Under the pieces are notes generated by a model. It had not been told where the DNA came from. It saw only the letters and a program-made list of their open reading frames with translations, and did not search any database. From assembly GCA_001595915.1 (NCBI GenBank), contig LSSG01000059.1, forward strand, positions 1 through 44,787: a DNA stretch of 44,787 nucleotides. The letters run 5' to 3'. Positions 1-42,877 of this stretch are shown in pieces (the first letter of the stretch is position 1; each line of letters starts with the position of its first letter). The position numbers and the translations under genes are program-made. This DNA is from Thermoplasmatales archaeon SG8-52-3. GTDB lineage: Archaea; Thermoplasmatota; E2; DHVEG-1.

Positions 1-1225
1 CTTCGTCGTAGTCGTTGTCTAGTGCGTCTATTTGGTTGTCTGTAGAGTCTTCGTCTACAGTTTGATAATCATCTTCTGCGATTGGGTCATCGTTTTCAGA
101 ATTAATTGTTATATAAACAGTTGCATGATTATAAGCACCATAGGGATCTGAGACATTGTAAACAAAACTATCAGTAGTTGTCTCACCACCATCATGAGTG
201 TAACTAAAAGTCCCATCACTGTTAAGTGTTAATGAACCATGGCTAGGTCCACTTATTAGATCTGCATTTAATGGATCGCCATCTGCATCTGTATCATTAT
301 CTAAAACACTATCATTTCCAGAATCAAGTAGTGTGGCTGTACTACCTTCTAAAACTGTTATATAATCATCATTTCCAATAGGCGCATAATTACAAATTAC
401 GACATTATAATTATCACTTTTATTTTCAACATTTACTTTATATCCTTTACAATCATCAATATTAATTGTATAAGCATTAAAACAAAAAGAACCACTATCA
501 CCAGAGTTAATTGTTCCACTTGCTACTACTGTATTTGGATCACAAGAACCCGGTTGACCAGTTATTGCCCAATTCAATTCAGTATTAGGTTGAAAATTAT
601 CTCCATTTATATATACGACATCTCCAGCACAATACTCATTTGCATTCTGTTCTTGAGTTCCACAATCATCTCTTGTTGTCCAAATTGCTCCTCCGCCAAT
701 AGGTTTATCACCTTTTGTATTTATATCCTGATTTATATCAATTTTATTTGGATTCTTTGGTTTAGTTTTATCGATTGTACTTCCATTTTTATCTTTAGGA
801 TCACTTGAATTTTCAGAAATTGAATTTATTGCTCCTTCTTCAATCAAATCTGAATATTGATTTTCTGTGATTACAAGAATTTCGTTTGTTAAACTAGAGT
901 TAACTCTTGGATTGTAAGAATCAGTTGTATCATTTGTATTTTCAATTATTAAATCAATAGGTCTGTCTGTAGTTTCATTGTTATCAGATGTTGTATAATT
1001 TTTTGTTGTTTCACTATTTGAATCATTTAATTCAGAATTTTCTGAAGAATTATTAGTTATTTCAAAATTATCATTTTCTATTAAAGATTGATTTAAATTA
1101 TCTATAATTTCAGATGGTTCAAATATATCACCTGAAACTTGGTTAATAGTTATTGAGGGTGTGATTAAAAGATTAATTATTAAAAATATAGTCAGCATAC
1201 TTTTTATATGCAAATTCGTTTTCAT
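1..1225 (-). CDS. Secreted protein with cadherin-like tandem repeats (partial, C-terminus outside window)
   Basis: The frame is open from an ATG at 1225 to the window edge, giving about 408 residues of a longer protein. The ATG follows a strong ribosome binding site (GGGGAGGAA, about 8 nt upstream). Residues 1-30 form a signal peptide (basic start, hydrophobic core). A long Asn/Ser/Thr/Asp/Glu-rich low-complexity linker follows, then a cysteine-containing Ig-like module, then a module of about 100 residues with the cadherin/VCBS (Big_9-like) pattern, including DPIAEDDYQTVDEDS, which marks the start of the next repeat. Such proteins are usually surface or secreted adhesins with Ca-binding beta-sandwich repeats. 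The module type is clear from the sequence; the adhesive role is inferred. The total repeat number and any C-terminal anchor lie beyond the window. Confidence 0.8.
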   Translation of the reverse strand, partial: MKTNLHIKSMLTIFLIINLLITPSITINQVSGDIFEPSEIIDNLNQSLIENDNFEITNNSSENSELNDSNSETTKNYTTSDNNETTDRPIDLIIENTNDTTDSYNPRVNSSLTNEILVITENQYSDLIEEGAINSISENSSDPKDKNGSTIDKTKPKNPNKIDINQDINTKGDKPIGGGAIWTTRDDCGTQEQNANEYCAGDVVYINGDNFQPNTELNWAITGQPGSCDPNTVVASGTINSGDSGSFCFNAYTINIDDCKGYKVNVENKSDNYNVVICNYAPIGNDDYITVLEGSTATLLDSGNDSVLDNDTDADGDPLNADLISGPSHGSLTLNSDGTFSYTHDGGETTTDSFVYNVSDPYGAYNHATVYITINSENDDPIAEDDYQTVDEDSTDNQIDALDNDYDE

Positions 1226-1443
1226 TTTAATGTTCCTCCCCTATTTTTATTAATATAGTATAAAGATGTATTTTATATAGATTTTCTATAAAATTAAAAT
1301 AGGGTTATAAAAATTATAATTTTTTATTAAATTGTTTATTTATTTTTGTTATAGCTAATCTCTGTGTTAATTAAATAGAAATAACTATAAAGCACTAATT
1401 AATTTTAAACTAAAAATTGAAATATAGATATTGGTGAGGAAAA

Positions 1444-1794
1444 ATGATAGAATGGCTAAATATAATTGCTGGACTAATTCTATGTGTAGGATTACTTGAA
1501 GCAATACCAGCAATGGGAAAACATCTTGCAAAACTAGCTAAATGGTTAGGTAGCTTTGACACAATAATTGGAATAATTCTAATAATTTATGTCTTCTGGC
1601 AAGGTTATTGGGATAGCTTATTTGGAATAGTTGCAATTTTTGCAGGATTAATTATGATAGTTGGAATTCTACCTGCTATTCCTGCTGTTGGAAAACATCT
1701 TGCAAAACTAGCTAAATGGCTCGGTGGTTTTCAAACAATTATCGGTCTAATTGTCTTAATTGTTGGTATACTTGGAGTATTAAATATTCTATAA
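1444..1794 (+). CDS. Small internally duplicated membrane protein
   Basis: This 116-residue protein is almost entirely hydrophobic, with about four membrane segments. It consists of two tandem copies of one unit: residues about 9-50 and 66-107 share the core AIPAxGKHLAKLAKWLG followed by FxTIIG. A GGTGAGGA ribosome binding site precedes the ATG. The two halves share a 30-nt identical DNA stretch (1516-1545 and 1690-1719), which implies recent duplication or gene conversion. The conserved amphipathic GKHLAKLAKWLG segment between the membrane spans may lie on the membrane surface. I do not recognise the family and no function is assigned. It is divergent from the secreted protein at 1-1225, with about 220 bp of AT-rich promoter region between them. 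Confidence 0.7.
   Translation: MIEWLNIIAGLILCVGLLEAIPAMGKHLAKLAKWLGSFDTIIGIILIIYVFWQGYWDSLFGIVAIFAGLIMIVGILPAIPAVGKHLAKLAKWLGGFQTIIGLIVLIVGILGVLNIL
1516..1719 (+). repeat. Intragenic direct repeat (two 30-nt identical copies)
   Basis: The stretch starting GGAAAACATCTTGCAAAACT occurs at 1516-1545 and again, identical over 30 nt, at 1690-1719. The copies are 174 nt (58 codons) apart and in frame. Flanking codons have diverged synonymously (for example TTAGGT against CTCGGT), so the identical block is best explained by a recent duplication or conversion event, or by selection on the nucleotide sequence. Confidence 0.9.
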
Positions 1795-1798
1795 AATT

Positions 1799-1829
1799 AC
1801 CCTTTTCTTTTTCTCTTTTTGTCTTTGTT
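1799..1829 (+). terminator. T-rich terminator
   Basis: Several T tracts separated by C or G (TTTTCTTTTTCTCTTTTTG) begin directly after the stop codon of the small membrane protein. This is the usual form of an archaeal factor-independent terminator. No stem-loop is visible. Confidence 0.5.
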
Positions 1830-1922
1830 CTAAAATTATTACTATTTTGAAATAACTTTAGAAAAAATAAAAGATTTAGATAAAGATAAACTAATGTATT
1901 TTAGATAAAAAGGAGAGATAAG

Positions 1923-2665
1923 GTAAAAGAAAACAAAATATTAGTTATGATAGTAACAATAGCGTTTCTTAGTTCAGCAATTTTGCTATCAGGATGTACA
2001 GAAGAAGAAAAGGAAAATAAAATTATTGTTGGAACCTCAGCAGATTTTCCACCATTTGAATATTCTGAAGGTGGAAAAATAATTGGTTTTGACATAGATA
2101 TTATTACAACTATTCTTGAAAAATATGTATAGAATATTTTGAAATTATCATAGGTACTCCTTTACTAGTACAGCTTTTTATAATCTATTTTGACTTACCC
2201 TCTGCAGGTATTATTTTATCACCTATTGATACAGCACTATTAGGATTGTCACTAAATTCTGGTGCTTATCAAGCTGAATACCTTAGAGGGTCCATTCAAT
2301 CAATTTCCTCAGGACAAATGATTGCTGCAAGAACTATTGGTATGACAAAATTGCAATCAATTAAAAATATTGCACTTCCTCAGGCATTAAAAATATCTAT
2401 TCCTGCATGGTCAAATGAACTGATTTATCTCCTTAAGTATACCTCAATTGTTTATATTATTCAAGTACGAGAACTTACTGCAGAAGGTAAATTTATTGCA
2501 GCTGAGACCTTTAAATTCATTGAGATATTTGCAATTATTGCAATAATTTATTTGGTACTTACTATCTTATTTACGACAATAATTGATAAATTTGAAGAAA
2601 GACTTAGAATTCCAGGAATTGGTTCAAAAGAAACAGTTGGAATTAGAAATGCAAAGATATTTTAA
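1923..2665 (+). pseudogene. Decayed amino-acid ABC transporter: binding-protein N-terminus joined to permease C-terminus
   Basis: Two incomplete pieces of one transporter locus lie in different frames. Codons from 1923 to 2131 encode a lipoprotein signal (lipobox LLSGC) and the first about 40 residues of a family 3 solute-binding protein (VGTSADFPPFEYSEGGK, then GFDIDII), ending in a stop at 2130-2132. From about 2126, in another frame, a HisM/GlnP-type permease continues from its GTPLLVQLF motif through the cytoplasmic loop (near SGAYQAEYLRGSIQSI) to a normal C-terminus at 2665. Roughly 200 residues of the binding protein and the first permease helices are missing, so a deletion fused the two genes. 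A good ribosome binding site (GGAGAG, about 1911) stands before GTA at 1923, where ATG or GTG would be expected, so the start codon also looks lost. No ATPase gene lies nearby. Confidence 0.8.
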
Positions 2666-13897: not shown

Positions 13898-15037
13898 ATG
13901 CCTTCAGAACAAGAAATTAAAAAAAATAATTCATCCAATAATGGGAAGTCTAATGATATAAAATCAGAAATAATTTTGAATCTTTTAGATGGAGCAAAAT
14001 CTCAATTTCCTCCAATTGCTCCTGAGCTTGATACTCAAAGAAAAATAGCATCAGATTTAAATCGCTCTATGGAAGAAAGACTTGAAGCTTTTGAGGACAT
14101 TATTGATTCTGAAATTGGTGATACAAACCTTACTCGTGCAAGAAATATTGAAAGAGAATTTGGATTACGTCAAATTTTTTTAAAATTTGAAGGAACAACT
14201 CCTACCGGTACTCAAAAAGATCGTATAGCTTTTGCACAAGTTATGGACGCTTTAAGAAGAGGATATGATACAGTAACTGTTGCTACTTGTGGAAATTATG
14301 GAGCAGCGATTTCACTTGCATCTTCTATTGCAGGAATTAATTGTGAAATAGTTATTCCTGAAAAATATCATACGAGCAGAATTAAAGAAATTGAAGAATC
14401 TGGTGCAAAAATAATCCGTGTTCCTGGTGATTATGAAAATGCGGTAAAGATTTCTCAAGAGATGGCTGATAAAAAGGAGTATTACGATGCTAATGCTGGG
14501 GGTAATAATACAATGATACAGCTTCGTGCATATGGTGAAATTGCATATGAAATTTATGATGAGCTTCGTGATGCACCAGCAGTAGTTGCAATGCCTGTTT
14601 CTAATGGTACAACTCTTGCAGGAATTTATAAAGGTTTTTTAAGCATTTATAGACGTGGTAAAACTTCTAAGATTCCAAGAATTGTTGCTGGCTCCTCTTA
14701 TGGGAAAAACCCTATTATACAAGCTTTTTTAAAAAATCTTACAAATTGTGAGGATTTATCTCCTGAAAAGATTCATGAAACCGCAATAAATGAACCATTG
14801 ATAAATTGGCGATCTATTGATGGTGATTATGCTCTTGAGGCTATTAGAGAGACCGGTGGTTGGGGTGCTTATGCTACTGATAAAAACATGATATATTTTT
14901 CAAAACTTCTTCGTGAAAAAGAGGGCCTTAGTGTTCTTCCTGCATCAACTGCTGGTCTTATTGCACTTTTAGATAAACATAAAAAAGATATTTTACCAAA
15001 TGATAGATACGTTATAATCTTAACAGGTAGAAAGTAA
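13898..15037 (+). CDS. Threonine-synthase-like PLP-dependent enzyme (fold type II)
   Basis: The ATG at 13898 gives 379 residues. An extension of about 70 mostly hydrophilic residues precedes a fold type II PLP domain. The lysine of PTGTQKDR (K107) should form the Schiff base. The phosphate-binding loop and substrate loops follow (TVATCGNYGAAIS; PVSNGTTLAGIYKG). Threonine synthases normally read PTGSFKDR, so Q replaces F. The enzyme is followed by DUF1611 and MurL-like genes on the same strand (gap 38 nt, then overlap), which suggests a role in that pathway and not simply threonine synthesis. It may act on a beta- or gamma-substituted amino acid. TTTAAATA at about 13850 is a likely TATA box. 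The fold assignment is sure; the reaction is not. Confidence 0.8.
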   Translation: MPSEQEIKKNNSSNNGKSNDIKSEIILNLLDGAKSQFPPIAPELDTQRKIASDLNRSMEERLEAFEDIIDSEIGDTNLTRARNIEREFGLRQIFLKFEGTTPTGTQKDRIAFAQVMDALRRGYDTVTVATCGNYGAAISLASSIAGINCEIVIPEKYHTSRIKEIEESGAKIIRVPGDYENAVKISQEMADKKEYYDANAGGNNTMIQLRAYGEIAYEIYDELRDAPAVVAMPVSNGTTLAGIYKGFLSIYRRGKTSKIPRIVAGSSYGKNPIIQAFLKNLTNCEDLSPEKIHETAINEPLINWRSIDGDYALEAIRETGGWGAYATDKNMIYFSKLLREKEGLSVLPASTAGLIALLDKHKKDILPNDRYVIILTGRK

Positions 15038-15075
15038 AATATTACTATTTTCTATATTTGGTTTGTGGCTGAGTT

Positions 15076-16125
15076 ATGAATAAAAAAAAAGCTATTGTTT
15101 ATGCAGATAGGTTCTTTAACTGTGCTGATGGTAAAACTGCTCATGGTCTTGTAAGATATAGTAAAAGGTTTGATATAGAATGTGTTGTGGATAGTACTAT
15201 TTCTGAGGGAGATGCAGGGGAAATTTTAGATGGAGTAAAAAGAAATATTCCTTTATTTAATGATCTTAAAAAAGCATATAATAAGGTTAAAGTAAATACT
15301 TTTATTATTGGAGCCGTATCAGAAGGAGGCGTTTTACCAAAAGATTATGATAAGGCAGTTATCTGGGCACTTGAAAATAATCTTGATATTGTGTCTGGTC
15401 TGCATCAATTTATATCTGATGATCCTGTTTTTTCAAAATTAGCTATAAAGTATGGATGTAATATTATTGATGTAAGAAAGATTTTTCGTGATCATAAACG
15501 TTTTTATACAGGAGAAATAAAAAATGTTAAATCCAAACGAATAGCAATTATTGGAACAGATTCTGCGGTTGGTAAAAGAACTATTGCTGTTATGATAAAT
15601 GAAGAATTGAAGAAGAGAGGTAGAAAAACTGATATGATTTATACCGGCCAAACTGGCTGGATGCAGGGTTGGCCACATGGAATTGTTCTTGATGCTATGA
15701 TTAATGATTTTATATCTGGTGGAATTGAGGGTGCTATTCTCGACTCATGGAAGGATATTAAACCTGAATTTATGTTTATAGAAGGCCAAGGAAGCCTTGT
15801 TCATCCTTTTTTTCCAGGTGGTTATGAGATACTTGCCGCAGGAAAAATTGATGGATTTATTTTAGTTGATGCACCAAATAGGCCTCATATGGATGGCTTC
15901 CCAGATTATCCAATGCCAGATCCTAAAAGAGTAGTAAGAATCGCTGAATTACTTACTGAAAAACCATTAGTTGGTATTGGTATGAACAGAGAAAATATGG
16001 ATAAAGAAAAAATTAAAAATGTTAAATTAAATCTAAAGAATATTTTCAATGTACCTGTTATTGAACCTTTGAGTGAAGGTGTTTCTGAAATTGTTGAATC
16101 TTTGGAGGAAATAAATGCCAGGTAG
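15076..16125 (+). CDS. DUF1611 family protein (DgcN-like)
   Basis: This 349-residue protein has a Rossmann-like N-terminal domain (residues 1-150) and a P-loop domain beginning GTDSAVGKRT (160-169), followed by TGQTGWMQG (190-198) and EGQGSLVHP (236-244). These are all DUF1611 signatures. One bacterial DUF1611 member, DgcN, N-acetylates D-glutamate in a catabolic pathway together with DgcA, a dipeptide-epimerase-family racemase. A homolog of that partner is encoded here at 19698-20768. Whether this protein acetylates, or uses ATP in another acylation, cannot be read from sequence. Its stop codon overlaps the start of the MurL-like gene, so the two are coupled. Confidence 0.87.
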   Translation: MNKKKAIVYADRFFNCADGKTAHGLVRYSKRFDIECVVDSTISEGDAGEILDGVKRNIPLFNDLKKAYNKVKVNTFIIGAVSEGGVLPKDYDKAVIWALENNLDIVSGLHQFISDDPVFSKLAIKYGCNIIDVRKIFRDHKRFYTGEIKNVKSKRIAIIGTDSAVGKRTIAVMINEELKKRGRKTDMIYTGQTGWMQGWPHGIVLDAMINDFISGGIEGAILDSWKDIKPEFMFIEGQGSLVHPFFPGGYEILAAGKIDGFILVDAPNRPHMDGFPDYPMPDPKRVVRIAELLTEKPLVGIGMNRENMDKEKIKNVKLNLKNIFNVPVIEPLSEGVSEIVESLEEINAR

Positions 16126-17551
16126 AATACCTGATATGATTTGTTTTTCTTCAATTGAATTAGAAGATCCCAAAATTATTGGTAAAAGTGTCAAATCAAA
16201 TGTAATTCTAAATAAATTAAATGGTGATATATCTTCCTTTGATATTTTTTTAAAATATGATATGAAAGTAAAGGAAGATTTTCTTCCTATTTTACGTCTT
16301 GCATTTACTATGCCACTATTAAATTATGGTCTGTTTTCAAAAAAATTCATATTAAAATTTCCAATAAGTAAAGCAGATTATGATATTTTAAAAAAATTAA
16401 ATGAAATTTTTAGTAGAGATATTTTTGTAAATAAGATTCTTAGAAGAAGAGCTAATTATATTCTTCCTAAATTTCTTCCAAAAGAAGAAAATGTTAAACC
16501 TGAGGATGCTAATTCTAAAGCCACTATTGAATCAAATAAAATTTACACTGATATTGCAATTTCTTCTGATATTGATAAAAATTGCTGTGGTGTTTTATCA
16601 AGTGGTGGTAAAGAAAGTCTATTAACTTATAGTTTGCTAAATGAGATTGGATGTAAGACTTATCCATTATATGTAAATGAAAGTGGAGGACATTGGAGGA
16701 CTGCTGTTCCTGCTTATAGATATCATAAGAAAAATGATTCTAAAACCCAGCGAGTTTGGACTAATATTGATAGATATTATGTATTTATGCTTGATAATTT
16801 GAAATTTATCAGACCTGATCATAGAAAAGTATGGGCTGATACCTATCCTATTCGGCTTTGTATTTTTCCATATTATGTATTCTTACTTTTACCAATTTTT
16901 GCAGACAAAAAAATCGGCAATCTTCTTATTGGCAGTGAATTTGATGATTTGAGATCTAGACCTAAATATCTTGGGATTAATCACTATTATGGTATTTACG
17001 ATCAACATCAGGACTTTGATATCATTATGAATAATTGGTTTGCCAAAAGAATCCCTGGATTATTACAATGGTCAGTTGTAAGAAATATATCAGGTTTAAT
17101 TGTAGAAAGAATTCTTGTAAATCGATACCCAGAACTTGCTAAATATCAACGATCATGTCATTCATGTCATTTTGAAAAAGATGAAATAATACCTTGTGGT
17201 GTTTGCTCAAAATGCATGGGTGTTTTACTATTTTTACTTGCAAATAAAGCAGATCCTAAAATTATGAATTTTAAAAATGTACATATTGATAATTTTTCTA
17301 AAAATGTCAAACCATCAAATCTAAGGCTAGATGAAGATGAGAAAAATCAATCATTTTATCTTATTTATAATAAAGATAAAATTTCTAATTTTAAACCAAT
17401 AGATCATGTTGAAAAAATCCATATTAATAAAGATACATGCAATCCAGATATAATCCCTGAACATCTAAGAGAGAAACTTATGGGGATAATACAAAATTAC
17501 ACTAAAGGCAAATGTGAATTAAAAAATGAAGAATGGATTTCATTAAACTAA
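16115..17551 (+). CDS. MurL-like PP-loop ATP-dependent epimerase
   Basis: This 478-residue protein starts at an ATG overlapping the DUF1611 stop by 11 nt, with GGAGG 6 nt upstream. A variable N-terminal domain (1-150) is followed by an N-type ATP-pyrophosphatase domain with PP-loop SSGGKES (162-168) and YVNESGGHW. The later elements YPIRLCIFPYYVFLLL, LLIGSEFDD, WSVVRNISGLIVE and a cysteine cluster (C348, C351, C361, C364, C367; CGVCSKC) match the order seen in bacterial MurL. MurL adenylates and epimerises the terminal L-Glu of UDP-MurNAc-L-Ala-L-Glu. Archaea lack that substrate, so a different Glu-ending peptide or amino acid is likely. The resemblance is recalled from family motifs and has not been searched. 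Confidence 0.7.
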   Translation: MPGRIPDMICFSSIELEDPKIIGKSVKSNVILNKLNGDISSFDIFLKYDMKVKEDFLPILRLAFTMPLLNYGLFSKKFILKFPISKADYDILKKLNEIFSRDIFVNKILRRRANYILPKFLPKEENVKPEDANSKATIESNKIYTDIAISSDIDKNCCGVLSSGGKESLLTYSLLNEIGCKTYPLYVNESGGHWRTAVPAYRYHKKNDSKTQRVWTNIDRYYVFMLDNLKFIRPDHRKVWADTYPIRLCIFPYYVFLLLPIFADKKIGNLLIGSEFDDLRSRPKYLGINHYYGIYDQHQDFDIIMNNWFAKRIPGLLQWSVVRNISGLIVERILVNRYPELAKYQRSCHSCHFEKDEIIPCGVCSKCMGVLLFLLANKADPKIMNFKNVHIDNFSKNVKPSNLRLDEDEKNQSFYLIYNKDKISNFKPIDHVEKIHINKDTCNPDIIPEHLREKLMGIIQNYTKGKCELKNEEWISLN

Positions 17552-17562
17552 TTTTATTTATT

Positions 17563-18033
17563 TTACGTTTCAATTTCTTTTACCATTCTAAAGGCATCGT
17601 ATGAGCTATACTGTTTATAGGTATAGTACTCTTTTAATAATGCAATTTTTATAAAACCCAATCTTTCATAAAGTTTTATCGCAGAAATATTTCCAACTGA
17701 AACCTCTAATCTAATTTTCTTTATATACATAGTATACATGTCTTCTTCGGCTGCTTTTATAAGCTTTTTTCCAATTCCATTACCTTGAAACAAAGGATCG
17801 ACATTCAAAGTTTCTATACCTGCAACTTTTGATCTTCTATTATATAAGACAATTATAAAACCACGTAGTTTCTCATTTATTATTTCTGCTAAACAATTAC
17901 TATTTGCTATTGTTATTAGATATTTTAATTGTTTTGGGGTATATGCTATAAACCTGTTAAAGCATTTTCTTTCCAGTTCAACGATACTGTCAAGATCATT
18001 TATTGTAATTTTGCGAATACTCCCCGGCTGCAT
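17563..18033 (-). CDS. GNAT-family N-acetyltransferase, RimI-like
   Basis: Read from the ATG at 18033, this is 156 residues; a TTG at 18042 would add three. It begins IRKITINDLDSIVELERKCF, a typical RimI/GNAT start, and has the acetyl-CoA loop VDPLFQGNGIGKKLI (motif A, R/Q-x-x-G-x-G/A) and VSVGNISAIKLYERLGF. Archaeal RimI/Ard1-type enzymes acetylate protein N-termini; small-molecule acetylation is equally possible given the neighbouring DUF1611 and M14 genes. It is convergent with the MurL-like gene, 11 nt apart. The GNAT fold is clear; the substrate is unknown. Confidence 0.88.
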   Translation of the reverse strand: MQPGSIRKITINDLDSIVELERKCFNRFIAYTPKQLKYLITIANSNCLAEIINEKLRGFIIVLYNRRSKVAGIETLNVDPLFQGNGIGKKLIKAAEEDMYTMYIKKIRLEVSVGNISAIKLYERLGFIKIALLKEYYTYKQYSSYDAFRMVKEIET

Positions 18034-18177
18034 AAAAATCAATCAGGTAATGTAAACCTATTCAATTACTTTTCTATGAAAAAGTTATTTGTTTTTAAGT
18101 CAATACAGAAAGTATTATAAATAGGATATTGGGGATTTATTATGAAGAAATATTTATGTTAAATATTTGGAGGAAAT

Positions 18178-18336
18178 ATGAACAATACAATTGATGTTAC
18201 AGAAAAATTACTAAAAATTGTTAGGAATAGAAAAACACCAATACTTGTTAATAAACAAGAAAATGCTTATAAAAAGAGCAGAAGTTCAAGTAAAAATCTA
18301 TCATATGATAGTTATTCATCTGATTCAGGAGAGTAA
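18178..18336 (+). CDS. Small protein with Ser-rich acidic tail, 52 residues
   Basis: An ATG at 18178 follows an ideal ribosome binding site (TTTGGAGGAAAT) and opens a 52-residue frame ending at a TAA at 18334-18336. The first part is basic (TEKLLKIVRNRKTP, then YKKSRSSSK) and the tail reads LSYDSYSSDSGE. The tail resembles that of the zinc-ribbon protein at 20825-21025 (Ser, Asp, Glu and Tyr rich). It stands alone on the plus strand inside the cluster of minus-strand enzyme genes, converging on the M14-like gene. I recognise no family; the tail may be a disordered interaction or modification segment. Confidence 0.65.
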   Translation: MNNTIDVTEKLLKIVRNRKTPILVNKQENAYKKSRSSSKNLSYDSYSSDSGE

Positions 18337-18343
18337 TATTCTT

Positions 18344-19696
18344 TTATTTATTTTTTAGAGCATCTGCAATAATTAATATACTTCCAAGTTGCATTTTTAC
18401 AGAGTTACGAATTGGAATTTGATAGAAAGCTCCACGTTCTTGAACACTTTTTGCAAGTGATTTTATTTCTAAATCGTATGCCTCCATTAATTGACATATT
18501 TTTGGAGCCCCACCTTTAACACAAATGCTTTCAGCAACTCTCCATATCTGACCAAGAAAGAATAAATCAAATATGTCTTCGACAACACTATTTTCAAATT
18601 TTTCAGCTTTTGTAATAGTCCTATCCTGTGATTTCTCAAGAATTCTTTTTTCATGTTGAAGGGATAATTTTGCATTTACAATATGTTTTTTTGCTAAATT
18701 TAATAGTAAAGGATCTGCCATATTTTCATATTCTTTGAGTCTGTCAAGTATTTTTCTAGAATATTCAACTCTTGATTTCTTCCTATTATATCGCTCCTCC
18801 ACCATTTTTTTATAGGATTTTTTCGATAGTTTTTTATCTTCTAGTTTATGACTTAGATACATTGGGACTTCGCAATTGAAACTATAGCCACCAATATTTT
18901 TCTGGTACCATTCATCACTACAGGCACCACGTCTTAAATCTGGTAGTACTAATGGGTCTTTTTTTTTGTAATATTCAAGATAATCTTTTAATCCATACAT
19001 TTGATAAAATCCTGGATAAAGCATCTGCCCAAATGGAACATCGGGTGATTTATCTGAAAGGGGTATATTCAAACTAGCGGCAAATTTTGTTAATTTTGGA
19101 TAAACTTCAGGGAAATCCTTGCTAAGATAGTAATATCCATTTGTAAAGCCACTATGATGTAGGTTACATAATAATTCTGGATGTTCTTTTTCCATAATTT
19201 CTTTTATTACAAGTGATTCAGGTCTTGATTGTGTCCATTGGTAATCCTCATATTCAATTGGAAAAGTCCATTCATATTGGTCTTCTGTTGGTTCTCTAAA
19301 TGAAGATTTTGCCATTGCTGCTAAAGACTCAGGCATATTGAACCAACCTTCATTTAATTGCATACCTCTTCGTTCAAGAATCGGTATTAATAGCCATCTC
19401 CATCCGAAACCATTTACTTCGGGATGAGTTGCCAACCATCTGGCAAAAAATGTTACCACGAGGCTTCCCAAAGGTTCATCACTATGAGGAACACCAATAA
19501 TAAGTGCTGTTTTGTCACTTTCTCCTATATCTAACATAATCAGAGGTTTTTTATCAACTGTATCAACAATTCTTTTATGTTTTACATTGGGCATTTCTAT
19601 AATAAGATTAATTAAATTGTCAATTTCATTTACAGTTAAAAAACGAGTATAGCTGGGAATTTCATTTAAAATTTTTTGAAGTTCTGTTGTTTCCAT
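18344..19696 (-). CDS. M14-like zinc carboxypeptidase/acylase
   Basis: This 450-residue protein starts at the ATG at 19696, 1 nt after the stop of the epimerase gene (GAGGTTGA lies upstream). The N-terminal two-thirds has the M14 metal and catalytic signature: HSDE (H71, E74) as the HxxE zinc pair, LCNLHHSG (H180 or H181) as third ligand, and NCEVPMY (E276) as catalytic glutamate. The last about 150 residues are helical and of unknown role. M14 includes muropeptide gamma-D-Glu-DAP amidase MpaA and the acylases AstE and aspartoacylase. Coupling to a dipeptide epimerase parallels the E. coli mpaA-ycjG pair. It could release an amino acid from a glutamyl peptide or deacylate N-acyl-glutamate. 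Confidence 0.75.
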   Translation of the reverse strand: METTELQKILNEIPSYTRFLTVNEIDNLINLIIEMPNVKHKRIVDTVDKKPLIMLDIGESDKTALIIGVPHSDEPLGSLVVTFFARWLATHPEVNGFGWRWLLIPILERRGMQLNEGWFNMPESLAAMAKSSFREPTEDQYEWTFPIEYEDYQWTQSRPESLVIKEIMEKEHPELLCNLHHSGFTNGYYYLSKDFPEVYPKLTKFAASLNIPLSDKSPDVPFGQMLYPGFYQMYGLKDYLEYYKKKDPLVLPDLRRGACSDEWYQKNIGGYSFNCEVPMYLSHKLEDKKLSKKSYKKMVEERYNRKKSRVEYSRKILDRLKEYENMADPLLLNLAKKHIVNAKLSLQHEKRILEKSQDRTITKAEKFENSVVEDIFDLFFLGQIWRVAESICVKGGAPKICQLMEAYDLEIKSLAKSVQERGAFYQIPIRNSVKMQLGSILIIADALKNK

Positions 19697-19697
19697 T

Positions 19698-20768
19698 CTA
19701 TAAATCAACCTCTATACCAAGTCCAGGTTTATTAGATGGAATAACATAGCCGTCTTTATAGGTTGCACCACCTTTTACAATATCTTCTTCAAAATCTAAA
19801 GCAGAGTCTAAATCTGCATATTGAACATTTTTAAATGCACAAGCAAAATGTACACCTGCAGCCATTGCTGCCATAGATTCATTCATACATCCTATCATTA
19901 CTGGAATTTCTGCAATTTCTGCATAGGTATTTGCTTTGATTGCATTTGTAATTCCTCCGATTTTCATAAGTTTGATATTAATCATATCTGCTATTTCCAT
20001 TTTAACAGCTTTAAGACTATCTCTGAGTGTTAATGCAGTTTCATCAGCCATTATTGGGACTGTACACTGTGCTGTTACTTCTTTGAGTGCATAAAGATAT
20101 TTTGCAGAAGTTGGTTGCTCTAAAATTTCAATATCTGCTCCTAGTTTTTCTAGAGTTTCAATCACACGTAATGCTTTTTCAAGAGAGTAACCTTCATTTG
20201 CATCCAAACGAATCTTTATTTTTGAACCGACTACATTTCTAATTGCAAGAACTACTTCAATATCTTGGTCGGGATCCATTCCACATTTAATTTTAAGACA
20301 AGTAAAACCCTGTTTTACGAATTCCTTTGCTTTTTCTACCATGACATCAGTTGGATTCAAACCAATTGTTACTGATGTCTCGATTTTATCTCTATATCCT
20401 CCAAGAAGTTTGTAAATTGGCATATTTGCCTTTTTACCAATTATATCATAAAGCCCCATGTTAATGCCTGCTCTTAATGAAGGATTTCCCTTTATTTTCT
20501 CTTCAATAATATCATTTATAAAATTGATTCTGATTGGATCTTCACCTATAAGAATATCTTTTAAAATACTATTAAAACAATTTATAACAGATTCTTTTGT
20601 TTCAGATGTGACACTATCGGGTGTTGCACATCCCCATCCAATAATATCTTCATCTGTTTCAATTTTCAAAAAAACATTTTCACCAACGTACATTGTTTCA
20701 TTTGCTATTGCAAAAGGTTCTTTTAAATTAAGATCTAAGGGATATGCTGAAACTGATTTAATTTTCAT
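19698..20768 (-). CDS. Dipeptide epimerase, enolase superfamily (AEE/DgcA-like)
   Basis: This 356-residue protein has the capping domain and (beta/alpha)7-beta barrel of the muconate-lactonising subgroup. Catalytic residues are in place: LKIK (K159, K161), metal ligands D189 (RLDANEG), E217 (ILEQPT) and D242 (MADETA), and K266 (INIKLMK). A DxD pair at D319/D321 (YADLDS) matches the motif that binds the alpha-ammonium of dipeptides in L-Ala-D/L-Glu epimerases. The same subgroup includes DgcA, an N-acetyl-D-Glu racemase. The M14-like gene follows after 1 nt, so the two form an operon. An inverted repeat at 20798-20814 lies over the probable TATA box. Confidence 0.9.
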   Translation of the reverse strand: MKIKSVSAYPLDLNLKEPFAIANETMYVGENVFLKIETDEDIIGWGCATPDSVTSETKESVINCFNSILKDILIGEDPIRINFINDIIEEKIKGNPSLRAGINMGLYDIIGKKANMPIYKLLGGYRDKIETSVTIGLNPTDVMVEKAKEFVKQGFTCLKIKCGMDPDQDIEVVLAIRNVVGSKIKIRLDANEGYSLEKALRVIETLEKLGADIEILEQPTSAKYLYALKEVTAQCTVPIMADETALTLRDSLKAVKMEIADMINIKLMKIGGITNAIKANTYAEIAEIPVMIGCMNESMAAMAAGVHFACAFKNVQYADLDSALDFEEDIVKGGATYKDGYVIPSNKPGLGIEVDL

Positions 20769-20824: not shown

Positions 20825-21025
20825 TTATTCATAACTATCAGTATCTTCACCTGACTCTTCAAAAGATACAGAATCTGATTCATGACTGCTATAACCATCT
20901 TTATCCGATTTTTTATTTTCACTATGAATTATATGTTTACAAATTTTACATCTGCCTTCTGAATCGTATTCTCTCCACTCCATACAATGAAGACAGAATT
21001 CATCATTTCCTGTTTTTAACTTCAT
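20825..21025 (-). CDS. Small zinc-ribbon protein with acidic Ser-rich tail
   Basis: This 66-residue protein has two CxxC pairs (FCLHC and RCKIC) forming a probable one-zinc ribbon in its first 37 residues. A tail follows that is rich in Ser, Asp, Glu and Lys (SSHESDSVSFEESGEDTDSYE-like). Its ATG overlaps the stop of the upstream YkgJ-like gene by 4 nt (ATGA), so both come from one message. The tail resembles that of the small protein at 18178-18336. Function is unknown; an adaptor or chaperone role for the neighbouring cysteine-cluster protein is a guess. Confidence 0.72.
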   Translation of the reverse strand: MKLKTGNDEFCLHCMEWREYDSEGRCKICKHIIHSENKKSDKDGYSSHESDSVSFEESGEDTDSYE

Positions 21026-21450
21026 GGTACACTCTCATATTCTGGTTTATATGTACTGTAGAGAATATTAATACCATTTGTTTGCTTAATAAGTTTAATA
21101 AATTCTTCTCTTATAAAATTTAACTCATTTTGAGACATTAGTTTACAATTTGTTGATAATTTACATTTTAAATCAGAAATATTTCCCTGAAGTCTACATA
21201 CAATAGGTCGAACAGGATATATTATACATTTATCATTTATAATATAAGGACATCTCATTTTATTATGTTTAAATTCTTCTTTTGTCCATATAATTCTATT
21301 TATTTTCTTTTTAATTAAATAATCCTTTATCAAAATTTCTTCAGGTTCAAACCAAATAATTGGTCCACAACATTGATGACAGTTTTGACAATTAAAACTT
21401 GGAATTGAAATATAAATTTTTTTTAAAGATTTTATAATCTTTACATTCAA
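21022..21450 (-). CDS. YkgJ-family cysteine cluster protein
   Basis: This 142-residue protein has the family pattern CQNCHQCCGP near residues 20-29, then RCPYIINDKCIIYPVRPIVCR and later CKLSTNC. YkgJ proteins are thought to bind Zn or Fe through about eight conserved cysteines and are related to protein methylation or metal-chelation systems in some organisms, but their role is generally unknown. The PVRPxVCR segment is diagnostic. It precedes and overlaps the small zinc-ribbon gene. A second YkgJ-like protein is encoded at 22781-23173. Confidence 0.85.
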   Translation of the reverse strand: MNVKIIKSLKKIYISIPSFNCQNCHQCCGPIIWFEPEEILIKDYLIKKKINRIIWTKEEFKHNKMRCPYIINDKCIIYPVRPIVCRLQGNISDLKCKLSTNCKLMSQNELNFIREEFIKLIKQTNGINILYSTYKPEYESVP

Positions 21451-21473
21451 TTCAATTTTTCCCCTAAAAATTT

Positions 21474-21902
21474 TTATATTAAACTTTTTTGCCTTAATGC
21501 AGCTGATTTAATCCTTATACCCATTGATTCTAAACCAGAAAAACCTTTTTCAGTAAGCATAAAAATTTTTTCATTCTTCTTTTTTATCCAACCTAATTCA
21601 ATTATCCTTTGCATTAATAAACTGCCTAAATATGAACCAAGATGCTCATAAAGAATACCATGATTACTCTCAAAACAAATACTGATTTTATTTCTTTTTT
21701 CTGAACGAAGTTTATCTACATCAATTCCAATAATTTCTAATTCGTCCCATCCCTTTTGAGTTATAAAATAATCATTACCAATCAATTGAATTAGATTCTC
21801 TTTTAAAAAAAATCTTAGAAGTGATTCTCCTAGAAGACCTCCTAAATGATCATTACAAGATGTAATATTCATTGTTTTTTCATTATTTTCATAATTCATC
21901 AT
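21474..21902 (-). CDS. Stand-alone ArsR-type effector domain without HTH
   Basis: This 142-residue protein has two copies of a small winged-helix-like unit: [14 protein letters not shown] with [16 protein letters not shown], then [21 protein letters not shown] with GWI and [14 protein letters not shown]. The spacing matches the C-terminal half of a group of ArsR regulators (CxDHLAGxLG ... LTxxG ... CLDWxxxxxHLxGxLG). The N-terminal winged HTH that binds DNA in those regulators is missing, so this may be a sensor subunit, antirepressor or divergent DNA-binding protein. Its start overlaps the end of the eS17 gene by 14 nt, so it is the third gene of a ribosomal protein operon. The family match is from remembered motifs. 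Confidence 0.6.
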
Positions 21903-22780: not shown

Positions 22781-23173
22781 TTGAAAAGTAATATTTGTCT
22801 CAGAAACAAATGCATAAATTGTTGTTTGAAAACATCTATGCTACTTTCAAATAGTGATATTCAAAAAATTGAAAGTATTGGATATGATAGAAATTTTTTT
22901 TCAAGAAGTAAAAAAAAGTGGTTGAAATTGAAAAATAAAAATGGAAGATGTGTTTTTCATAATGGAAAAATCTGTTTAATCTATGAAAATAGACCTGAAG
23001 GTTGTAAGCTTTATCCTCTTATTTTTGATAATATACACAAAAGAGCAATTGTTGATGAAGAATGTCCATTTCAGGATTATTTTAGATTTAGTAAAAAAAA
23101 TGTTAATCAATTATACATGTTAGTTACACAAATTATTGAGGAAAGAAAAAATCGAAAAAAACCAAAAACATAA
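22781..23173 (+). CDS. YkgJ-like cysteine cluster protein, second copy
   Basis: This 130-residue protein starts at a TTG at 22781; an in-frame stop precedes it and the next ATG is at residue 20, so TTG is the only start that keeps the first cysteines. It contains CLRNKCINCC at the N-terminus, RCVFHNGKICLIYENRPEGCKLYP in the middle and EECPF, the usual order of YkgJ-type metal-binding clusters. The C-terminus is basic (ERKNRKKPK). Function is unknown; binding of Zn or Fe is inferred. It is divergent from the uL16 operon. Confidence 0.75.
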   Translation: MKSNICLRNKCINCCLKTSMLLSNSDIQKIESIGYDRNFFSRSKKKWLKLKNKNGRCVFHNGKICLIYENRPEGCKLYPLIFDNIHKRAIVDEECPFQDYFRFSKKNVNQLYMLVTQIIEERKNRKKPKT

Positions 23174-38258: not shown

Positions 38259-39923
38259 TTAATTCTTCTTTTGATTTTTTAGATAATAAAAGTACTTTAA
38301 ATCTTCAATTTCTTCATCATCAATAGTATAATTTGTATCAATTTTTTCCTTAAGCTCTAATGCAATTTTTTCTGCTTGCTCAAGATAGTATTTACGTAAC
38401 CTTGGAAGTCTTGATAAATCTATTTTTTTTGTTTTAAAAGTTTCATCGGTTGATAAACTTGGGAAATTAGGTTTATAGCCAATATAACTCCATTCAGCAG
38501 TTATCATGTTGATTTCATATTTCTCTAAAAAAAGATAACCATATTTAGCAATAAATTCAATTGTTTTTAAAATATAATCAACATCATCTTTACGTAAGGT
38601 GTAATGCAAATTTAGACGTACCCATCCTGGTTTTATACCTTCGCAACCCTGTATAATTATTTTTCTATATTTTGAGGAAGTTTCTTCATCGATATCAAGA
38701 AGATGATGGCCATAAGGACCAGCACACATACAACCTGCTCGCGATTGTATACCAAATAAATCGTTTAACAATTTTGAAACAAATCTAGGATGAAGATATC
38801 TATCTTTATGAATTATATTAAAAGATATAATTGGTATCTTTTTATCAGAAGATATCTCACCAATTATTTCCACATTTTCAAGCTTTCTTAATTTTTCAAT
38901 AAAATATTCCTTATATTCTTCCTCAATTTTATAAATTGTTTCTATTCCAATTTTTTCTTTTAAATCAAGAACTAATGCAGCTTTTATTGCTTGTAAAATT
39001 GGAGGAGTTCCTGCTTTTTCCCGCATTTCAATATCGTCATAGTAATCTTGTTTAGAAAGTCCTACATATTTAACGGTTCCACCACCAGCAGTTGTCGGTG
39101 GTAGATCTCTTCTATAGATTTTTTCATTTATTACAAGCACCCCACATGAACCCGGCCCTCCAAGAAACTTATGAGGTGAAAAAATTATTCCATCAAAATA
39201 TGACTTTTCATCCTTGTTCATATTAATTTTTCTATATGGTGCAATAGCTGCAAAATCGTAAAATACTAATGTATTATTTTCATGACAAATTTTTGCAATT
39301 TCATAAGTTTCTGTTAATATCCCTGTGACATTTGAACATGCAGAAAATGAGGCAATTTTGGTCCTATTCTTATAAGCTGGGTTTTTAAGTTTATTTTCAA
39401 GATCTCTTTTATCAATCATACCATTTTTATCAAATTTTATGATGATGAGTTCGACAATTGCTTCACGCCACATAAGTTCATTTGAATGATGCTCATATGG
39501 ACCGATAAAAACAACTGGACAATCCTTTTCAAGAATTTGTTTTTCAAATGATTTTTTAAATTTATCTAGTGTTGCCGGAGGAATGTATATACCAAGAATT
39601 TCTTGTAATCTTTTTAATGCACCAGTCGTTCCAGCACCCGTAAAAATAATTTTTCCATTTTTACCTGCATTTACTATTTCTTTTATTCTTAATTCAGCTT
39701 GATGTAAAAGGTGTGTTAGATATTTTCCTGAAAAATCATCTTCGGTATGAGTATTTGCATATGTTTTTAGTATATTTTGAATTTTATCTTCAATTATTTT
39801 GATACCACGACCAGATGCTGTATAATCAATATATAACATATGGCGATCACCAAAAGGAGTATTAAAAATTAAATCATTTCCAATAATCTGTTTTCTAATA
39901 TTTTCAATTTGATATTGATTCAT
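38259..39923 (-). CDS. Class V aminotransferase / cysteine desulfurase-like enzyme
   Basis: The ATG at 39923 follows GGGGAG 6 nt upstream and gives 554 residues. The class V PLP fold shows: MLYIDYTASGRG, FTGAGTTGALKRL, FSACSNVTGIL, VFYDFAAIAPYRKI, the Schiff-base SPHKFLGGPGSCG, and a small domain with RAGCMCAGPYGHHLL, a cysteine region near where SufS and CsdA have catalytic cysteines. The additional C-terminal 130 residues are helical. Reaction with cysteine or a related beta-substituted amino acid is plausible. The enzyme is longer than typical SufS (about 400). Confidence 0.88.
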   Translation of the reverse strand: MNQYQIENIRKQIIGNDLIFNTPFGDRHMLYIDYTASGRGIKIIEDKIQNILKTYANTHTEDDFSGKYLTHLLHQAELRIKEIVNAGKNGKIIFTGAGTTGALKRLQEILGIYIPPATLDKFKKSFEKQILEKDCPVVFIGPYEHHSNELMWREAIVELIIIKFDKNGMIDKRDLENKLKNPAYKNRTKIASFSACSNVTGILTETYEIAKICHENNTLVFYDFAAIAPYRKINMNKDEKSYFDGIIFSPHKFLGGPGSCGVLVINEKIYRRDLPPTTAGGGTVKYVGLSKQDYYDDIEMREKAGTPPILQAIKAALVLDLKEKIGIETIYKIEEEYKEYFIEKLRKLENVEIIGEISSDKKIPIISFNIIHKDRYLHPRFVSKLLNDLFGIQSRAGCMCAGPYGHHLLDIDEETSSKYRKIIIQGCEGIKPGWVRLNLHYTLRKDDVDYILKTIEFIAKYGYLFLEKYEINMITAEWSYIGYKPNFPSLSTDETFKTKKIDLSRLPRLRKYYLEQAEKIALELKEKIDTNYTIDDEEIEDLKYFYYLKNQKKN

Positions 39924-40075
39924 TAAACTCCCCAAATCTTATAACAATTTAGAATATTGTTATAACATTTCAATATTTTATCTTAATTGAATTTTTTTAA
40001 ATTAACATAATTCTTATTGATTTTGCATTAAATATTTAACCATTAAAAGAATTTTCCTTTGCGGGAGATGATTAT

Positions 40076-41302: not shown

Positions 41303-42877
41303 TTATTTGAAAGAAATTTCTTCAACCCATATAAATAAACTAGGTCTTGGAGTCCATTCAATATTTTCTATAGTTCCATAAAAAGCCTTATTTGAAAAAA
41401 GAGGAATACAAGCTACATCTTCTGCTGCTATTGCAAATATTTCCTGAATGTAATCTTTTCTATTATCTGTAATCATTGTATCACATAGTATCTCACAAAG
41501 CGTGTCTAATTCACTATTTGAATAATTTCCATAGTTCCAAAGTCCTACACCTTCCTCAATATCAGGTGTATGGAGTAATAATTTTATAGTTGATTCAGCA
41601 TCGATTGGATTCCATCCTGTGATATATAGAGAGGTATTTCGATAATAAAGATTTGAATAATAATCAAATTGAGGTAGGGGTTTTAGTATAATACTAATAT
41701 TGATCTTTGAAAGCTGATTTGCGATTTCATTTGATATGTTTATCCATTTAGATGAGTCAGGAATATCTAAACCGATAGTAAATCCGTTTTCATAACCTGC
41801 TTCCTTCAAAAGATCTCTTGCTGTATCAATATCATATGCTAATCTAGTTATGTTAGGATTGTATCCAAATGTATGTGAAGTTATGAATTGGGATGCTGGA
41901 GTTGCAGAACCATTTAAAAATTTATCAATTAATGTTTCAATATTGATAGCATGGTACATTGCTTTTCTTACTTTCAAATCAGAAACAGGATTTTTTAAGT
42001 CTGGAAATCCATAGCTATTGTTAACTTTGAAATCAAAACTCATATATATTACTGCTGGAGTTTGTATGGCTTTTACTTCCAAACCTGCAGTACTTTTTAT
42101 TTCATCAACATAATCATTTGAAAGTTGAACAATATCTAATTCTCCAGATATAAGTGCATTTTTTAATTCTTCTGAATTGTTCATATTTTTAAAAGTCACT
42201 TTGTTAACGTCAGATTTACCCTTCCAGTAATCATCAAATCTTTCCAGAATAATATATTTTCCAGGTATATATTCAGATAATTTGTAGGCTCCAGTACCAA
42301 TCGGCCAAGTTTCGTTAGTATCTTCTGTTTTTATTATATAATCTTTTGAAAGAATAAAAAGAGTTCCTAATTTGTAAAGTAACATAGGATATGGTTTTTT
42401 AGTTATGATATCTATTGTATAATTATCCAATATTATAATTTTTGATATTGAATCGAGTTCTTCTTTATGGTAAGATGAATTTCTCATATATTCTATTGTA
42501 AATTTCACATCCTCTGCACTAAAATTATTACCATTATGAAATTTTACTCCTTCTCTTAAAAAAAATCTCCATGTAGTATTATCTGGATTATTCCAACTTT
42601 CTGCAAGGGCTGGTACATATTTAAAGGTTTTAGGATCCATTTCAGCCAAATAATTAAATAGATTAACATTTACGGAAAGAGAAGTAGTATCTCTAGTATG
42701 CATCCAAGGGTAAAATCCAGATATATTATATGTCATACCTATTATTATATCATAATCAGTTTTTTTATCTCCATTTTCAGTTTCATTTAAACATCCGGAT
42801 ATTAAAAAAATATTAAAAAACAGAATAAATAAAATCAAAAAATTAACAATTTTTTTTAACTTTATTTTTCTAAACAT
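41303..42877 (-). CDS. Family 5 solute-binding lipoprotein (peptide/nickel type)
   Basis: This 524-residue protein has a signal with lipobox (FLISGC), then the family 5 SBP fold: AESWNNPDNTTWRFFLREGVKFHNGNNFSAEDVKFT, SGELDIVQLS, VRKAMYHAINIETLID and LLKEAGYENGFTIGL. The protein binds oligopeptides or chelated metals outside the cell and delivers them to an ABC importer. No permease or ATPase for it is in the window, so it may pair with a system elsewhere. The mature part is anchored through the lipid-modified cysteine. Confidence 0.93.
   Translation of the reverse strand: MFRKIKLKKIVNFLILFILFFNIFLISGCLNETENGDKKTDYDIIIGMTYNISGFYPWMHTRDTTSLSVNVNLFNYLAEMDPKTFKYVPALAESWNNPDNTTWRFFLREGVKFHNGNNFSAEDVKFTIEYMRNSSYHKEELDSISKIIILDNYTIDIITKKPYPMLLYKLGTLFILSKDYIIKTEDTNETWPIGTGAYKLSEYIPGKYIILERFDDYWKGKSDVNKVTFKNMNNSEELKNALISGELDIVQLSNDYVDEIKSTAGLEVKAIQTPAVIYMSFDFKVNNSYGFPDLKNPVSDLKVRKAMYHAINIETLIDKFLNGSATPASQFITSHTFGYNPNITRLAYDIDTARDLLKEAGYENGFTIGLDIPDSSKWINISNEIANQLSKINISIILKPLPQFDYYSNLYYRNTSLYITGWNPIDAESTIKLLLHTPDIEEGVGLWNYGNYSNSELDTLCEILCDTMITDNRKDYIQEIFAIAAEDVACIPLFSNKAFYGTIENIEWTPRPSLFIWVEEISFK

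Follow-up and report, generated by a model that had tools for sequence, protein, structure and literature searches.

The stretch of DNA analyzed here, referred to as the window, comprises 44,787 nucleotides (nt) of contig LSSG01000059.1 (C59) from Thermoplasmatales archaeon SG8-52-3, a metagenome-assembled genome (MAG) of Thermoplasmatota of 1.9 Mb that is ∼79% complete. Between positions 13898 and 20768 it carries six genes, and the analysis supports their working together as a conserved module in the chemistry of amino acids or peptides, with stereochemical inversion likely. The first three, termed the core, lie on the plus strand. They encode a pyridoxal phosphate (PLP) enzyme of fold type II (P0001, 13898–15037) in the family NF004996 (PRK06381), which is labelled threonine synthase; a DgcN-like DUF1611 protein (P0002, 15076–16125) having a Rossmann-like N-terminal domain and a P-loop C-terminal domain; and a MurL/QueC/QatC-like PP-loop ATPase (P0003, 16115–17551) having an SGGKES loop and five invariant cysteines. 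The DUF1611 and PP-loop genes overlap by 11 nt, and GGAGG is found shortly 5′ of the PP-loop ATG. On the minus strand, a gene for a RimI-like GNAT N-acetyltransferase (17563–18042) is convergent to the PP-loop gene, and beyond it lie the genes for a putative M14-like zinc hydrolase (18344–19696 with an ATG start, or to 19708 with a TTG start) with HSDE, LHH, and CEVP motifs and for a dipeptide epimerase of the enolase superfamily (P0006, 19698–20768) with K159/K161, K266, D319xD321, and E24. The ATG start of the hydrolase is 1 nt past the epimerase stop; the TTG start would overlap the epimerase gene. All six open reading frames, their positions, and this strand layout agree with a first-pass annotation of the DNA that had proposed a cluster for glutamate stereochemistry and peptides.

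Matches to Pfam and NCBIfam identify PALP, DUF1611 N and C, GNAT, and MR_MLE enolase domains among the products. In the Pfam scan neither the PP-loop nor the M14-like protein matches a family above cut-off; the former is assigned from motifs, fold comparison, and weak MurL profile matches, and the latter from motifs and an alignment of its profile with carboxypeptidase M that falls short of significance. A scan for bacterial-type promoters returned fewer promoter-like sites than shuffled sequences, and a bacterial-type terminator scan was likewise uninformative.

Within the window's family, the PP-loop protein is matched in 22 of 45 genomes, the matches at loci L022 and L025 being distant paralogues; the order PLP–DUF1611–PP-loop is retained in nearly all loci that are long enough, and the convergent GNAT in most. 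A search of 84,980 species genomes yielded 78 loci, among them the Thermoplasmatales Ferroplasma (L091), Acidiplasma (L082), Thermogymnomonas (L100), and Cuniculiplasma (L090), the remainder being other Thermoplasmatota, Bathyarchaeota/MCG-6 records (e.g., L043, L051, L052, and L055), and one Myxococcales MAG (L048). Clustering of the window and the loci from L026 on gave families of 78 PP-loop, 74 DUF1611, and 58 PLP members, many of the shortfalls being loci truncated by the end of a contig. Across Thermoplasmatota and Bathyarchaeia the three core genes stand side by side in the same orientation at dozens of loci belonging to different families, on which basis chance adjacency is rejected, and the convergent GNAT stands beside the core both in the window's family and in Bathyarchaeia. 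One group of loci (L056, L058–L070) has DUF1611 and PP-loop genes without an adjacent PLP gene, which for L061 (genome G314) sits elsewhere in the genome. In the Myxococcales MAG (G313) the PP-loop and GNAT genes (L048, 9932–12062) and the PLP and DUF1611 genes (L132, 6252–8981) are on separate contigs, the latter pair adjoining what we take, from reading the sequences, to be dnaA-dnaN-recF-like genes; this MAG may represent a bacterium that carries the entire core, or may have been mixed by a binning error.

The genes also co-occur across genomes. Of 295 genomes surveyed in the phylum, 55 have a PP-loop orthologue (counted by hand, excluding a distant paralogue in G036 and weak fragments), 55 have an NF004996 protein over cut-off, and 53 have both (Fisher p 2e-53, relatedness uncorrected); DUF1611 is spread more broadly, in 78 genomes. 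The M14-like protein is present in eight of the 295, and all eight carry the PP-loop protein and an epimerase of the close subfamily, the association between the M14-like and PP-loop proteins amounting to 9e-7 by counting alone; six further genomes encode dipeptide epimerases that are more distantly related. The hydrolase/epimerase pair of G067 and G305 is located on contigs separate from that of the core, indicating that co-occurrence is not merely linkage, and in Bathyarchaeia locus L052 the pair is inverted with the GNAT still adjoining. The expectation that these genes travel together in archaeal genomes is thus borne out, and they also remain linked. Retention of the module across Thermoplasmatota, cultured Ferroplasma and Acidiplasma included, and its presence in Bathyarchaeia as well point to a real pathway. 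Because the core is found in most carriers, whether or not the GNAT is present, without the M14-like hydrolase and close epimerase, which occur as partners in so few genomes, it is probably the core that makes a product and the hydrolase/epimerase pair that processes it.

P0001 scores 432.6 bits against NF004996, above the cut-off of 266, and its closest solved relatives are threonine synthases. It shares with canonical threonine synthase (ThrC, TIGR00260) the PLP fold type II and the catalytic lysine region, but its score against TIGR00260 is 112 bits, below the cut-off of 167.1, and the ThrC residues are not conserved. In the PLP family Thr/Ser is replaced by C131, Gln by S266, and Glu by L347, and Tyr134 of P0001 likewise stands in place of a ThrC residue; K107, C131, and S266 are invariant in 56 of 56 operon-type PLP proteins, and L347 is present in 55 of them. 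A separate canonical ThrC over cut-off accompanies the operon or PP-loop gene in eight of the nine genomes tested, lying in L125 beside a homoserine dehydrogenase-like gene; none was found in the window's own, incomplete assembly. Ordinary threonine synthesis, which the first-pass annotation had named as an outcome fatal to its proposal, is rejected on these grounds, and the functional name threonine synthase is probably wrong for this archaeal family. Cys131 lies within a T-C-G-N motif at the position that we take to be that of Ser84 in serine racemase, and because it occupies that place a two-base racemase role for the PLP enzyme is plausible by analogy.

The AlphaFold2 model of P0003 has a high predicted local distance difference test score (pLDDT 92), and its Foldseek matches are QatC (E 4.7e-4), NcsA, Cap9, TtuA, and QueC (TM-score 0.63–0.64 by target length); no MurL entry is among the matches listed. 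S163, G165, K166, C348, C351, C361, C364, and C367 are invariant in the PP-loop family, and P0003 has the SGGK(D/E)S loop, the fold, and the C-terminal Cys motif of QueC/QatC-like PP-loop ATP pyrophosphatases, without exceeding the Pfam gathering score of QueC proper (PF06508). QatC, QueC, and Cap9 are the best structural matches and have a similar Cys-rich C-terminal motif; P0003 nevertheless differs from them in its low identity (11–16%), partial overlap, TM-score by query length of up to 0.37, extra parts, and gene neighborhood. QueC-type enzymes also adenylate carboxylates, as QatC, QueC, and Cap9 are thought to do, and carboxylate adenylation would by analogy be the activity most safely assigned to P0003.

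The nearest named NCBIfam family is MurL (NF041275), whose profile hits 15 of 37 relatives with E values of 0.1 or lower, whereas the QueC profile matches 4 of the 37. P0003 itself scores 11.5 bits (E 0.077) against a cut-off of 700, so that its description as MurL-like stands at the superfamily level, and as the nearest named family, but membership in MurL does not. A true MurL was not found by plasmid tblastn, and the NF041275 search of control genomes gave no match, the relatives matching only weakly. MurL is ATP-dependent, yields AMP, and epimerizes peptidyl-Glu (PMC8788868); its ATP use and AMP formation fit a PP-loop enzyme, and P0003 is similar to it in length. The two differ in that the partners of P0003 are PLP, DUF1611, and GNAT proteins, with MurD2 absent from the cluster, to which that search was confined, and in that carriers of P0003 are not known to make peptidoglycan. 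The best NF041275 match (E 5e-6) is in a divergent paralogue, at L022. There (1204–2439, minus strand) and at L025 (437–1855, plus strand) a second divergent PP-loop family of 411–472 amino acids (aa) is encoded; compared with the window protein, this family is nearer to MurL and to QueC (E 5e-4).

These comparisons bear on a reading in which the core builds a specialized small molecule by QueC-like adenylation and threonine-synthase-like replacement on a phosphorylated amino acid, stereochemistry remaining unchanged and the epimerase pair being a loose accessory. Such amide-type chemistry is considered unlikely: the top fold matches of P0003, the threonine synthases closest to P0001, and the prevalence of the core without the pair are in its favor, whereas the excess of MurL over QueC profile matches, the restriction of the pair to PP-loop-positive genomes, and the loss of the ThrC residues argue against it.

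P0002 scores 188.7 and 77.5 bits against PF07755 and PF17396, in both cases over the gathering score, and 175.4 bits against the DgcN equivalog NF041892, for which the cut-off is 480. Elsewhere, a DUF1611 frame in G142 (L130, 3683–5263) has ∼180 extra N-terminal residues, representing a fusion or an upstream open frame; in relatives of high GC content (L128), what look like fusions of DUF1611 to long upstream frames were discounted as probable frame artefacts. The GNAT scores 75.8 bits against RimI (TIGR01575, cut-off 86.4), and another RimI, at 93 bits, is present elsewhere in the window genome, so a housekeeping RimI is rejected for this gene.

The best solved relative of P0006 is the L-Ala-D/L-Glu epimerase YkfB (1jpm/1tkk, 248 bits), with which it shares the catalytic lysines and the DxD motif; the two lysines and DxD expected of a dipeptide epimerase are present, K161, K266, D319, and D321 being invariant in the module epimerases. 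The DxD motif marks dipeptide substrates, whose ammonium group it binds. Against the equivalogs, P0006 reaches 237.9 bits for the YkfB-type epimerase (NF041118, cut-off 500) and 149.4 bits for DgcA (NF042940, cut-off 400). Glu24 is found in 11 of 11 module epimerases (the window protein and 10 relatives), and Gly or Ser at this position in six other archaeal dipeptide epimerases, whereas B. subtilis YkfB has Arg24, which we take to be the residue binding the Glu side chain of the substrate. Because Glu24 replaces this presumed Glu binder, glutamate specificity of P0006 is doubtful, and from its sequence the enzyme is predicted to take dipeptides in which a basic or polar residue, not Glu, stands second. 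The roles of the catalytic lysines in dipeptide epimerases have been described (PMC5808125). In the partner hydrolase, HSDE (75–78), LHH (H184/H185), and CEVP (E280) are invariant in nine sequences, and a profile lines up the zinc motif with carboxypeptidase M at a non-significant E of 0.18; the structure model is poor (pLDDT 54, shallow alignment), and assignment to M14 is plausible on the motifs.

The first-pass annotation had centered on glutamate, and one reading retains this, with the module salvaging bacterial muropeptides or catabolizing D-Glu through DgcN/DgcA-like and L-Ala-D-Glu epimerase activities. A DgcN/DgcA D-Glu pathway is published for halophilic archaea (Yu et al., ISME J 2023), and, to the extent that its citation as reference 27 in PMC12363236 conveys, DUF1611 proteins and enolase-type epimerases act jointly on D-Glu in bacteria and haloarchaea. 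Archaeal peptidoglycan hydrolases have also been described (PMC12352652), and in another archaeal genome (G109, L155, 1549–3731) DUF1611 and dipeptide epimerase genes converge, 23 nt apart, in a DgcN-DgcA-like pairing. As in marine Proteobacteria and halophilic archaea, the module combines a DUF1611 protein with an epimerase of the enolase superfamily, but the two score well short of the equivalog cut-offs, and a haloarchaeal-type DgcN/DgcA system is rejected; furthermore, the DxD motif indicates free dipeptides rather than N-acetyl-Glu, and the DUF1611 gene is locked to the PLP and PP-loop genes. Muropeptide salvage is not favored for the core, since most carriers lack the hydrolase and dipeptide epimerase. 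With the DgcN, DgcA, Ala-Glu epimerase, and MurL cut-offs all missed and, as the weightiest point, Glu24 invariant in the module epimerases, glutamate is not sustained as the residue, nor are the DgcN-like activity proposed for P0002 and the DgcA/AEE-like activity proposed for P0006, and this reading is judged quite unlikely. In support of the first-pass interpretation, no glutamate racemase MurI over cut-off was found in the 45 family genomes. The claim that no such system had been described in archaea holds for the six-gene combination, of which no description was found in the searched literature, but not for D-Glu metabolism, the DgcN/DgcA of haloarchaea, as represented in that citation, being the nearest published archaeal system.

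The stereochemical theme of the first-pass annotation fares better, three of the proteins belonging to families able to invert amino-acid stereocentres. The favored reading, held tentatively and at slightly less than an even chance, is that the module produces a small peptide or acyl-amino acid carrying an inverted (D) residue and, where all six genes are present, recycles it as well. In its favor stand the linkage and co-occurrence of the genes, the separation of P0001 from ThrC, the fold of P0003 with MurL as its nearest named family, and the DxD motif and catalytic lysines of P0006. The PLP enzyme would supply the amino acid, either as a racemase, with Lys107 and Cys131 acting from opposite faces, or through a replacement reaction; acylating it, or activating it in another way, would fall to the DUF1611 protein; and the PP-loop enzyme would adenylate a carboxylate with ATP and then either epimerize the terminal residue, as MurL does, or join it to an amine. 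The GNAT would cap an amino group, the M14-like enzyme would trim the product to a dipeptide, and the enolase-type epimerase would invert the C-terminal residue of that dipeptide, opening it to cleavage by ordinary peptidases. Several points weigh against this reading: the PLP, PP-loop, and DUF1611 families also include enzymes that leave stereocentres unchanged; in sequence P0003 is distant from MurL, and its solved neighbors QatC, QueC, Cap9, and TtuA are not epimerases; and the role of Cys131 as a second base is an analogy with Ser84 of serine racemase.

A gene for the D-aminoacyl-tRNA deacylase DTD2 (PF04414, 199 bits) lies 49–331 nt upstream on the same strand in 22 of 22 Thermoplasmatales loci in which both DTD2 and the PLP gene were clustered. 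This adjacency fits a cell that makes D-amino acids; counting against the favored reading, DTD2 is a housekeeping gene, and it adjoins the core, at that distance, in one order only. Together with a Tsr3-like gene, DTD2 flanks the core in Thermoplasmatales, and this flank, like the presence of TtuA, NcsA, and Cap9 among the fold matches of P0003, might suggest that tRNA or a protein terminus is what the PP-loop enzyme modifies, in the manner of TtuA and Cap9, with the neighboring genes supplying the group. Such a role is very unlikely, as a dipeptide epimerase and a peptidase do not fit it, the Pfam scan annotates no tRNA-binding domain in P0003, and the translation genes on the flanks are conserved in that order only.

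To our knowledge, D-amino-acid chemistry is poorly known in archaea that lack peptidoglycan. An extension of the favored reading, possible rather than probable, is that an unrecognized core pathway of wall-less and sediment archaea makes a D-amino-acid peptide or conjugate, serving as a cofactor, cell-surface component, or small-molecule protectant, by means of three mechanistically unrelated epimerase-type enzymes, one of which would represent a new family of PP-loop epimerases that depend on ATP and act outside peptidoglycan. A cell-surface role for the product is conceivable because Thermoplasmatales lack an S-layer (PMC12448462). Through the PP-loop family, a first group of proteins distantly related to the ATP-dependent MurL-type enzymes becomes available outside the synthesis of cell walls.

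Other features of the window lie at higher positions than the module. A Cys-rich protein of 142 aa (CQNCHQCC) and a second protein of 142 aa are encoded at 21022–21902, with counterparts at L027 (14790–15646) and L163 (6133–6995), and the two remain beside the epimerase in a related genome; a further Cys-rich protein is encoded at 22781–23173. Positions 38259–39935 encode a class-V aminotransferase-like protein that at 558 aa exceeds the usual length, and positions 41303–42877, ∼20 kb from the module, a family 5 (peptide/oligopeptide type) extracellular solute-binding protein, possibly part of a peptide importer.

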